Assembly: GCF_014202275.1 (NCBI RefSeq)
Contig: NZ_JACHGF010000002.1
Location: forward strand, 682,001-746,000
Source: Rhabdobacter roseus
GTDB taxonomy: Bacteria > Bacteroidota > Bacteroidia > Cytophagales > Spirosomataceae
Length of the DNA stretch: 64,000 nucleotides
Reading direction: 5' to 3'
In this document: positions 17,631 through 58,366 of the stretch, piece after piece
Numbering within the stretch: the stretch's first letter is position 1
How the letters are laid out: every line of letters begins with the position of its first letter
Position numbers and translations under genes: made by a program
Notes under the pieces: model-generated
The model's input: only the letters and a program-made list of their open reading frames with translations
Told to the model about the DNA's origin: nothing
The model's database searches: none

Positions 17631-17666
17631 AGCGAGTCAGGTATTACCCAAGCTAGGTACTTCTAA

Positions 17667-17718
17667 AAGCAAAAAGTCGGGAAGGGTACTTTGAAGTACC
17701 CTTCCCGACTTTTTGCTT
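17667..17718. terminator. Bidirectional terminator carrying the GGTACTT/AAGTACC pair
   Basis: Perfect 25-bp arms (17667-17691 and 17694-17718) around a 2-base loop. The loop-proximal end of the stem is GGTACTT on the left and AAGTACC on the right. A- and T-runs at the two ends serve both the aldo/keto reductase (+) and pyrE (-), whose stop codon it touches. Confidence 0.9.
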
Positions 17719-31059: not shown

Positions 31060-31092
31060 AGGTACCTCCTGTTTGAAAGGCCATGTACTTCT

Positions 31093-31186
31093 GTTCGCGT
31101 TATAAACGCGTTTGCTCGGGCGTTCGCGTTACAAACGCGAACGAGCCTAACACGCGAACGAACTTAACACGCGAACGAACCTGAAC
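31093..31186. repeat. CGCGAACG repeat block with hairpin and 17-bp tandem copies
   Basis: A perfect hairpin (9-bp arms 31122-31130 and 31134-31142, 3-base loop) is preceded by a related half-copy at 31093-31110. It runs into three imperfect 17-bp tandem units at 31136-31152, 31153-31169 and 31170-31186, each starting CGCGAACGA. It lies between convergent genes and just before the ABC-F terminator. The origin is unknown; it resembles a short palindromic intergenic repeat. Confidence 0.75.
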
Positions 31187-31195
31187 CTAAAAAAA

Positions 31196-31227
31196 ATCGC
31201 CCCGCCAAACGTAGTGGCCGGGGCGAT
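31196..31227 (-). terminator. Terminator after the ABC-F gene
   Basis: ATCGCCCCG (31196-31204) pairs with CGGGGCGAT (31219-31227); on the minus strand a run of T follows the stem (31189-31195). Confidence 0.8.
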
Positions 31228-31258
31228 AAAAGGATTTCAAGAATGTACTTAAAGTACC

Positions 31259-41852: not shown

Positions 41853-41856
41853 AGTG

Positions 41857-41889
41857 CGAAGGAGCAGGTACCTGGTACCTGCTCCTTCG
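41857..41889. terminator. Terminator with GGTACC-based stem after aroK
   Basis: Perfect 16-bp arms (41857-41872 and 41874-41889) around one base. Each arm carries a GGTACC and both read AGGTACC/GGTACCT. It lies between aroK (+) and the porin gene (-). There is no strong T-run. Confidence 0.75.
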
Positions 41890-41914
41890 TGGATAACCTC
41901 CATTTTTTCTTTCC

Positions 41915-56349: not shown

Positions 56350-57462
56350 ATGAAGTACCCTATCCTCATCGCGGGCGGCGGCCTGGCCGGATTGGTCTGT
56401 AGCATCGAGTTGGCGCAGGCTGGTCTGAGGGTGATCCTGATCGAGCGTAAGAAGTACCCCCACCACAAGGTCTGTGGCGAATACGTTTCTAACGAAGTGA
56501 GGCCTTACCTGGAAAAACTCCGCCTGGACCTGAAGGCACTGGGGGCCGTTGAGATCCAACGCTTCCGGCTCACTTCTCCCCGTGGCAACGTGCTGGATAC
56601 CCGCCTGGACCTGGGCGGCTTTGGCATTAGCCGGTACCGGCTCGACGCCGCGCTTTATGAGCTGGCGCTGCAAGCGGGCGTGGAGGTAGTACTCAATACC
56701 ACCATCACGGATATTCAGTGGAAGGCGGACGGCTTTGAGGTGCAAACGCCCGAAGCGTGTTATCAAGCCGAAATCGTGGTGGGAGCCTACGGAAAGCGCG
56801 CCCGGCTTGACCGGCAGCTGGAACGGCCCTTCATGCAGCAGCCTTCGCCCTACTTGGGTGTAAAGTACCATGTGCGCTACGATTTCCCCGACGACCTCAT
56901 TGCGCTGCACAACTTCAAGGGTGGGTACTGTGGTATTTCAGCCGTTGAGGAGGGTAAATTCTGTTTTTGCTACCTCATCGAGCGCGCCGCCCTCAAGGCC
57001 TTTGGAAGTATTCCGGTGATGGAGAAAAAAGTACTGGCCCGCAATCCACACCTGTATTCCATTTTGCACGAGGCGGAGTTTCTGTACGATAAGCCGGAGG
57101 TCATCAATGAAATATCCTTTGCTCCCAAAAAAGCCATCGAAAATCACATCCTGATGGCGGGCGACGCCGCCGGGCTCATTACGCCCCTCTGCGGCAACGG
57201 CATGGCCATGGCGATCCGGGCCGGAAGTATGGCCGCTCACGAAATCACGGGGTACTTTAACCACCACCACAACCGGGCCCAACTGGAAGAGAAGTACGCC
57301 CAGCGCTGGCAAAATGAGTTTTCTACCCGCCTCTGGGTAGGCAGAAAAATACAGCGCCTCTTCGGCAGTGAAGCCCTGTCCGAAATGGCGCTGCATTTTT
57401 TTGGAATGGTACCACCCGCCATGCGGCTCGTGATCCGGCGTACGCACGGCAGTCCGTTCTAA
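56350..57462 (+). CDS. FAD-dependent oxidoreductase (geranylgeranyl-reductase-like)
   Basis: A 370-residue flavoprotein of the p-hydroxybenzoate hydroxylase/geranylgeranyl reductase group. The FAD motif ILIAGGGLAGLVCSIELAQAG starts it (broken across the 20-residue limit here), KVCGEYVSNEV follows, and the GD motif LMAGDAAGLITPLCGNGM is at about residue 280. It may reduce a polyprenyl or hydroxylate an aromatic or polyketide substrate. It is a single gene ended by a motif-rich hairpin. Confidence 0.85.
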   Translation: MKYPILIAGGGLAGLVCSIELAQAGLRVILIERKKYPHHKVCGEYVSNEVRPYLEKLRLDLKALGAVEIQRFRLTSPRGNVLDTRLDLGGFGISRYRLDAALYELALQAGVEVVLNTTITDIQWKADGFEVQTPEACYQAEIVVGAYGKRARLDRQLERPFMQQPSPYLGVKYHVRYDFPDDLIALHNFKGGYCGISAVEEGKFCFCYLIERAALKAFGSIPVMEKKVLARNPHLYSILHEAEFLYDKPEVINEISFAPKKAIENHILMAGDAAGLITPLCGNGMAMAIRAGSMAAHEITGYFNHHHNRAQLEEKYAQRWQNEFSTRLWVGRKIQRLFGSEALSEMALHFFGMVPPAMRLVIRRTHGSPF

Positions 57463-57579
57463 AGAAGAAGAGGTACCTACCCTACTACTAAGGCTAAGTA
57501 CCTCTACTGAAACAAGCCGAAGGTACCTTGTAGGGGGTACTTTGTAAGTACCCCCTACAAGGTACCTGTGCCGGCCTGA
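57463..57579. repeat. Densest cluster of the GGTACY motif
   Basis: About seven copies in 117-130 bases, including GGTACCT near 57472, AAGTACC at 57496, a hairpin carrying four copies (57521-57567) and GGTACCT just past it. It lies between the flavin oxidoreductase (+) and the small gene (-), which converge. Confidence 0.8.
57521..57567. terminator. Hairpin made of four GGTACY motifs
   Basis: Perfect 22-bp arms (57521-57542 and 57546-57567) with a 3-base loop. Each arm starts with an AGGTACCT-type copy and ends with a GGTACTT-type copy. It is in the right place to stop both converging transcripts, though it lacks a long T-run. Confidence 0.8.
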
Positions 57580-57816
57580 TCAGGTACCTCCGTAGGCGGG
57601 TTTATTTATATCGGGTTTATCCGTATTTCTGTTTTGGTGTAGTACGTGTACTACGCTCGGGTCAGGCTCCCCGTTTTCGTCGGCGTAGGTGTCCTCGATG
57701 TCGTTTAGCCGCTCCCGCTCGTCGCTGTTGAGCTCTTTCACTTCCGATTTATCTTTTTCCGTCTGGGTAGGTCCTGCTTTGGTCGCCCCGCCCGGTTGTT
57801 TGCTTTTATAAGGCAT
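57580..57816 (-). CDS. Small hydrophilic hypothetical protein
   Basis: A 78-residue protein rich in Asp, Glu, Lys, Asn and Pro, with DERERLNDIEDTYADENG in the middle. It has no signal, membrane segment or known domain. I prefer the ATG at 57816 (MPYKSK); the frame is open up to 57909, but that start would overlap the AsnC gene. Function unknown. It lies downstream of the AsnC gene on the same strand. Confidence 0.55.
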   Translation of the reverse strand: MPYKSKQPGGATKAGPTQTEKDKSEVKELNSDERERLNDIEDTYADENGEPDPSVVHVLHQNRNTDKPDINKPAYGGT

Positions 57817-57901: not shown

Positions 57902-58366
57902 CTACTCAAGGGGTAGTTCGGTGGTACTTTTGACCTGGGACATCACAAAAAAACTACTGATGTGCAGCACACTTTTAAGGACCGAAAGATTTTGCTGGTA
58001 AAACTGATTATAGGCCTCGACGTCGTCTACCACGATTTTCAATAGGTAGTCGAAACTACCCGACACCACGCAGCACTCCAGTACTTCGGGCATTTGACCT
58101 ACCGCCTCGTTGAACTCCTCAAAGCTTTCTTTGCGTTGCTTGTCGAGCGTTATGTTACAATATACCAATAGATTCTTCCCCAGCTTACGGCGGTTCAGCA
58201 GGCACACATACCGCTCAATGTACCCTTCTTTCTCGAGCTTGCGAATGCGGTCGTGGACGGGCGTGACGGAGAGATTGACCCGCGCGGCCATTTCTTTGAT
58301 GGTAAGCTGGGCGTTTTGCTGGAGCAGCTTCATTAGCTGGCGGTCCGTGGCGTCTGGGTTCATCAA
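57902..58366 (-). CDS. Lrp/AsnC family transcriptional regulator
   Basis: A 154-residue Lrp-type regulator with an N-terminal helix-turn-helix (IKEMAARVNLSVTPVHDRIR) and a C-terminal RAM/AsnC ligand domain (CCVVSGSFDYLLKIVVDD). It is divergent from ald, the standard arrangement for alanine-responsive regulators (AldR type), so it probably controls ald in response to alanine or another amino acid. A palindrome at 58462-58478 is a possible operator. Confidence 0.88.
   Translation of the reverse strand: MMNPDATDRQLMKLLQQNAQLTIKEMAARVNLSVTPVHDRIRKLEKEGYIERYVCLLNRRKLGKNLLVYCNITLDKQRKESFEEFNEAVGQMPEVLECCVVSGSFDYLLKIVVDDVEAYNQFYQQNLSVLKSVLHISSFFVMSQVKSTTELPLE

Follow-up and report, generated by a model that had tools for sequence, protein, structure and literature searches.

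Between two converging genes of Rhabdobacter roseus lies a perfect hairpin that carries four copies of a short word, and the question it raises is whether it represents a terminator made from a DNA uptake sequence, as a first-pass annotation had proposed, or the local outcome of a process acting on the whole genome. The window that we analysed is a stretch of 64,000 nucleotides, and positions refer to it unless a contig is named. R. roseus is a soil isolate described with 6,917,964 bp and 54.0% G+C (PMC11356934); the genome analysed here contained 6,917,964 bases, with a G+C content of 54.3% in a 464-kb sample.

The hairpin and its convergent spacer

An inverted-repeat scan recovered the arms (57521-57542 and 57546-57567) exactly as first described, with 22 nt per arm, 100% complementarity and a 3-nt loop, and the placement between converging genes was confirmed as well, the plus-strand stop ending at 57462 and the minus-strand gene at 57580 (Table 1). 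By a crude estimate that assumes independence, such perfect repeats (loops 0-20) would be expected by chance about 8e-8 times per 64 kb. The arm layout was AGGTACCT, TGTAGGG and GGTACTT. The four motif copies are present as annotated, but the motif makes up 15 of the 22 bases of each arm, and the claim that the hairpin was built entirely from these copies was an overstatement. AGGTACCT is a palindrome by itself. Because the arms are perfect mirrors, the four copies amount to two acquisitions plus mirroring.

Table 1. Features of the hairpin locus, in window coordinates
Feature	Position	Strand	Evidence
FAD-dependent oxidoreductase-like gene, 370 aa, upstream neighbour	56350-57462	+	
Convergent spacer, 117 bp, six motif copies	57463-57579		
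Second, imperfect predicted stem-loop; outer stem pairs 57471 (AGGTACCT) with 57496 (AAGTACC)	57469-57505	+	predicted fold
Hairpin, 47 nt, 22-bp perfect arms, 3-nt loop	57521-57567		inverted-repeat scan and predicted RNA folds
Motif copy AGGTACCT (palindromic form), left arm, outer	57521-57528		
Motif copy GGTACTT (AAGTACCC read on the minus strand), left arm, loop side	57536-57542	+	
Motif copy AAGTACC (mirror of the left-arm GGTACTT), right arm, loop side	57546-57552	-	
Motif copy AGGTACCT, right arm, outer	57560-57567		
Small gene, 78 aa from ATG, convergent neighbour; no Pfam family; Telluribacter relative 48% identical	57580-57816	-	
Additional AGGTACCT that overlaps the final codons and the stop of the small minus-strand gene	57582-57589		
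Lrp/AsnC-type regulator gene, next on the minus strand	57902-58366	-	

The hairpin had been called the densest motif structure in the window, a description that is correct for convergent spacers: of 137 in a 1.26-Mb sample, this 117-bp one shared the highest count, six copies, with a spacer of 286 bp. Four copies, at 57471, 57496, 57521 and 57546, lie on the same strand exactly 25 bp apart. A 25-bp period as a general feature was rejected, since same-strand spacings in the 1.26 Mb had no peak at 25 (nine intergenic pairs, with 4-10 at neighbouring spacings), and the spacing was taken as chance. Three other convergent spacers of the window were noted in passing. At 41853-41914, a perfect hairpin formed around CAGGTACC/GGTACCTG has no adjoining T-tract; at 17631-17716, the motif sits at the loop of a hairpin whose 25-bp arms are perfect and contain A/T runs; and at 31060-31258, the motif is accompanied by repeated ACACGCGAACGAAC-like units.

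The 47-mer occurs once in the R. roseus genome. A genome-wide search for the double-motif layout, proposed as a check in the first-pass annotation, gave 12 matches at 10 places, three of which (L202, L195 and L198) were folded. Two places were symmetric four-copy hairpins, symmetric meaning that the place was matched on both strands, so that one further case was obtained, at C7:263541-263588. It has a long predicted fold and, as judged from the frames by eye, sits in the spacer of two co-directional genes, after the stop of the first and before the start of the second. Rfam gave four sub-threshold miRNA-model matches and nothing else for the region of the original hairpin (best E 0.012, 26.5 bits vs a gathering score of 70).

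The hairpin was also thought to end the two converging genes. The convergent site and the predicted fold agree with this: a stable stem-loop after the gene, as expected of an intrinsic terminator, was predicted on both strands, and a 126-nt stretch with the hairpin folded far more stably than its shuffles in either direction (z -7.85 and -10.30). The T-rich tail of a canonical intrinsic terminator, however, is missing at 57521-57567, where the longest T-runs of the flanks are 1 and 2, no T-tract adjoins the hairpin on either side and an intrinsic-terminator scan gave no call. The hairpin may still have a Rho-dependent or RNA-stabilising role.

Perfect hairpins were common in convergent spacers, with 45 in 125 spacers in the 1.26 Mb, and 23 of the 45 had a T-run of 4 or more. 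The whole set, defined by arms of 11 bp or more, loops of 2-15 and spacers of 15 bp or more, comprised 109 perfect hairpins. With loops of 3-12 nt and AGGTACCT counted as motif, 43 convergent hairpins were obtained, 5 with the motif; with loops of 2-15 nt and AGGTACCT excluded, these numbers were 45 and 7. The word was found in an arm of 17 of the 109 hairpins, vs about 6.4 expected from motif density, which leaves room for selection of the word within stems. The excess lay in co-directional (8 vs 1.9, p 0.0008) and divergent spacers (2 vs 0.14, p 0.0095), while convergent motif-bearing hairpins were near expectation (7 vs 4.4, p 0.15). Chance pairing of neighbouring copies in short arms may account for part of this excess. 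T-runs of at least 4 accompanied 8 of the 17 motif-bearing hairpins vs 51 of the 92 others.

A genome-wide word enriched past gene ends

The word AAGTACC/GGTACTT was found 15,982 times in 6.92 Mb, or once per 433 bp, vs 1,323 copies of the reversed control. Strand counts were nearly equal (7,891 GGTACTT and 8,091 AAGTACC; 674 and 649 for the reversed word) and did not support a strand-polar signal genome-wide. The 64-kb window alone contained 161 copies of GGTACTT (7.4 expected) and 26 of AGGTACCT (0.65 expected). The motif proved to be an asymmetric 8-mer, chiefly AAGTACCY, AACTACCY and AGGTACCT. Relative to a second-order Markov expectation in 1.26 Mb, with similar values on 464 kb, AAGTACCT was enriched 14.3x, AAGTACCC 11.9x, AGGTACCT 11.3x, AACTACCC 8.9x and AACTACCT 6.7x. 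The scan pattern ARSTACCY is shorthand only, as it includes AGCTACCY, which was not enriched (1.0-1.2x), while the weaker variant AGGTACCC reached 3.9x. Among the eight palindromes of the form xyGTACy'x', AGGTACCT was the one with strong enrichment, and AAGTACTT and GGGTACCC reached just 2.6x and 1.4x. Outside the 8-mer, the preference was mainly for A one base upstream (464 kb).

The copies were unevenly distributed between genes and spacers. In 1.26 Mb with 992 predicted genes, coding sequence held 2,294 copies in 1,077 kb (2.13 per kb), divergent spacers 171 in 55 kb (3.08 per kb), co-directional spacers 437 in 108 kb (4.03 per kb) and convergent spacers 175 in 18.6 kb (9.42 per kb, 4.4 times the coding density); the limits of the spacers are approximate, as the genes were predicted with a simple codon-score ORF script. 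For convergent spacers, the first 464 kb had given 16.8 per kb, and the later value was adopted. Forty-two of the 137 convergent spacers were free of any copy, with AGGTACCT counted too. In the first 464 kb, density was highest within 10 nt past the stops of convergently paired genes, where 851 bp contained 28 copies (32.9 per kb). Over the first 10 nt past the stops of 369 genes, the two orientations were similar (28 and 22), which speaks against an oriented RNA signal.

Copies were evenly spread along the length of genes of at least 600 bp. Codon usage was ruled out as the origin of the motif by within-gene synonymous-codon shuffling in the 464 kb, after which about 136 coding copies remained vs 874 observed; all three frames in both orientations exceeded the shuffles. 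One orientation was commoner in reading frames (510 vs 364, 464 kb). Codon-atypical genes gave no clear signal of motif depletion (1.93 per kb vs 1.70-2.64 in the other fifths). Whether the motif drives amino-acid change was examined against Persicitalea, where the conserved share was lower at Ser-Thr motif sites than at the remaining Ser-Thr sites (10/42 vs 46/98, p 0.014) and no different at Val-Leu and Gly-Thr motif sites (p 0.61 and 0.46).

An inverted pair that doubles as a terminator had been regarded as a hallmark of uptake-sequence biology. Neighbouring uptake words are described as strongly biased to one inverted order, with same-orientation neighbours within 10 nt being rare, and uptake-sequence hairpins as flanked by A- and T-tails (PMC1852404, Kingsford and colleagues). 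In R. roseus, 218 GGTACTT..AAGTACC inverted pairs within 10 nt were counted genome-wide, against the 207 expected from 414 same-orientation pairs (p = 0.55); the reverse inverted order was counted in the 1.26-Mb sample only. Close pairs of both kinds were about twice as frequent as under a uniform expectation (101 inverted and 203 same-orientation), as uneven motif density would give. Within the convergent spacers of the 1.26 Mb, the two inverted orders accounted for 12 and 2 pairs within 10 nt and the two same-orientation arrangements for 9 and 4. These spacers thus have a local preference for the order seen in the hairpin, with no overall inverted excess (14 inverted vs 13 same-orientation). 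The hallmark was therefore not borne out, same-orientation pairs being common, and the uptake-terminator reading fails its main testable prediction genome-wide, although a terminator role at the single site may still apply. From the first interpretation as a whole, the converging genes, the genome-wide motif and the stable predicted fold survived, whereas the canonical terminator and the uptake hallmark did not.

Distribution of the word and the hairpin among relatives

In a scan of 222 genomes of the family from 36 genera, R. roseus included, its 15,982 copies were the highest count, followed by Persicitalea (5,106), Telluribacter (3,781 and 3,554), a genome inferred to be Salmonirosea (3,024) and G050 (1,916). 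The motif density of Persicitalea is about a third of that of R. roseus. Among 296 genomes sampled across the phylum, which included R. roseus and only two other family members, reading the table by eye showed none besides R. roseus above about 0.2 per kb, vs 2.3 in R. roseus. The variant AACTACC exceeded its control in Persicitalea (3,897 vs 1,320) and R. roseus (3,604 vs 1,671), and slightly in the two Telluribacter genomes (1,786 vs 1,384 and 1,833 vs 1,366).

At alignable R. roseus coding sites, Persicitalea had the same word at 22 of 217 (114 reciprocal-best gene pairs from a 500-kb Persicitalea sample, covering part of the shared genes), so most copies differ between the two genomes. In Persicitalea, neither GGTACTT/AAGTACC nor AACTACC was denser in spacers than in genes, which limits the spacer-filling account to R. 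roseus.

The FAD gene also faces an AsnC-type gene in Telluribacter, Persicitalea and Arundinibacter, with an AsnC match in 8 of 80 loci, and the small 78-aa gene had a match in the Telluribacter locus only (48% identity, 80 loci). Over the 250 nt that follow the FAD gene, these three relatives had no inverted repeat of at least 10 bp (loops 2-15) and at most one motif copy. The hairpin, absent from the three nearest relatives examined, is probably one local, recently arisen product of the genome-wide word.

Other word biases were noticed as well. In 100 kb (L107-L111) of G218, of the genus Telluribacter, another dispersed word was GTGGACTTTTGTCG-like, with GTGGACTTT found 16 times vs 0.7 expected. 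In 100 kb (L112-L116) of G173, the inferred Salmonirosea, the palindrome AACCGAGGTT was dispersed (10 vs 0.2 expected), with overlapping words such as CCTAAACCTC. Strong word avoidance was seen in G303, G357, G460 and G361 of the phylum sample, with 16-25 GGTACTT in 2.5-3.3 Mb in three members of family f28 and zero TTCATGG in the 3.5 Mb of G361. In seven genomes of genus g8 (G051, G055, G056, G060, G073, G086 and G090), GGTACTT and AACTACC both fell far below their controls; restriction avoidance was considered for these GGTACTT-poor genomes and set aside, because AACTACC was scarce too and composition is the likelier cause.

The DNA methyltransferase families of R. roseus and three related genomes were also compared. 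PF00145 was matched in all four (R. roseus, Persicitalea, and Telluribacter G218 and G219), PF01555 twice in R. roseus, once in G219 and not in Persicitalea or G218, and PF02086 in R. roseus only. Judged by eye from neighbouring frames, the surroundings of the R. roseus enzymes resemble restriction, phage and type III settings. No shared orphan methyltransferase stood out among these three families in the four genomes, where specificities are not readable from sequence.

Explanations and comparison with known systems

On balance, we consider it moderately probable that the hairpin is a lineage-specific perfect stem-loop, located between convergent genes in a spacer of weak constraint, which a genome-wide word has filled under DNA-level pressure. 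Copies would arise across the genome, probably by point changes, through a pressure that presumably acts on DNA, and would survive best where little else is selected, past stop codons and above all between convergent genes, so that 3' spacers may fill through low constraint. Two copies would have come to share one arm and been mirrored in the other, either by selection for pairing or by arm-to-arm copying. The folded RNA, if it has a role, would most likely protect or mark the 3' ends of both transcripts rather than act as a canonical intrinsic terminator. We counted against this explanation the stem excess, the 12-to-2 order in convergent spacers, the codon-atypical genes that are not clearly motif-poor and the lack of spacer enrichment in Persicitalea.

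The main alternatives differ in what they take to be selected. Were the hairpin itself under selection as a bidirectional terminator, either Rho-assisted or Rho-independent though lacking a T-tract, with the motif recruited to build its arms, the convergent position, the very stable predicted fold on both strands, the frequency of perfect hairpins in convergent spacers (45 in 125) and the overall surplus of the motif in stems would follow; we regard this as unlikely, given the missing T-tract and the absence of the hairpin from three nearest relatives with the same convergent neighbours. If instead the word were a DNA uptake sequence or another recombination-linked mark of self-DNA, and the hairpin an uptake-sequence terminator as in Neisseria and Haemophilus, one would expect over-representation, often 1,000 copies or more, and R. 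roseus has thousands on both strands. The asymmetry of the word, its enrichment past stops and between convergent genes, the preference of convergent spacers for the hairpin's inverted order over the reverse, the commoner orientation in frames, as reported for uptake sequences (PMC2346458), and the enrichment of the one-base variant AACTACC in Persicitalea are consistent with this. Set against it are the pairs, with no genome-wide inverted excess and common same-orientation neighbours, unlike the uptake-sequence genomes described in PMC1852404, the even spread within genes, unlike the terminus bias reported for Pasteurellaceae (PMC2346458), and the lack of clear depletion in atypical genes, which make it rather unlikely.

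A methylation-linked iterated motif like cyanobacterial HIP1, arising as a by-product of methyl-directed repair, would agree with the word's similar density and spread across genes and spacers, with the GTAC centre of its main forms and with the matches to three methyltransferase families in R. roseus. This appears quite improbable, as the word is asymmetric where a palindromic one is expected, with AAGTACTT and GGGTACCC raised only 2.6x and 1.4x, the R. roseus enzymes seem by eye to lie in restriction-, phage- and type III-like settings, and Persicitalea has no PF01555 or PF02086 match. A term search of the main text of the HIP paper PMC4390886 found no mention of GTAC or of Bacteroidetes. 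An origin of the hairpin from a mobile or REP-like repeat element, as one of its copies, is very improbable: the second four-copy hairpin at C7:263541 would fit, but the 47-mer occurs once in the genome, and outside the 8-mer and one adjacent base the motif copies have little sequence in common.

On its own, the hairpin is of modest interest, and what deserves attention is the genome-wide word. Its density is extreme, it reaches its maximum in a small group of genera with graded counts (15,982; 5,106; 3,781 and 3,554; 3,024), and it fails one defining test of each of its two closest kinds, uptake sequences and HIP palindromes. How genomes come to accumulate such words, and why, can be tested directly in a soil bacterium whose sister genera carry the word at different levels. 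Should the word be a self-DNA watermark, an asymmetric 8-mer expanded in one lineage, with a dialect in Persicitalea and 3' spacers filled up to multi-copy hairpins, it would be the first uptake- or recombination-type signature in Bacteroidota, a reading that we hold to be rather unlikely. Among open-licence papers searched for the words, HIPs, uptake sequences and hairpins and the genus names, no report of the motif was evident from titles and the opening of abstracts.

Among known systems, REP/BIME elements are intergenic palindromes that form stem-loops in 3' spacers, where the R. roseus stem-loops also lie; R. roseus, however, has no shared repeat beyond the 8-mer and its neighbouring base, and the hairpin sequence is unique in the genome. 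HIP1 (GCGATCGC) is likewise an 8-base word dispersed at very high density, but is described as palindromic and methyltransferase-associated (PMC4390886), whereas the R. roseus word is asymmetric, with no matching methyltransferase identified among the three Pfam families searched. With the uptake terminators of Neisseria and Pasteurellaceae (PMC1852404), it shares a short abundant word and mirrored copies in stems of convergent genes; it differs in having no inverted-pair excess, common same-orientation pairs, no T-tract at the hairpin of 57521-57567 and another phylum as its host. In contrast to the DUS dialects of Neisseriaceae (PMC3630211), the words in Persicitalea have no higher density in spacers than in genes; as in those dialects, related genera are enriched for words one base apart, here AAGTACC and AACTACC.
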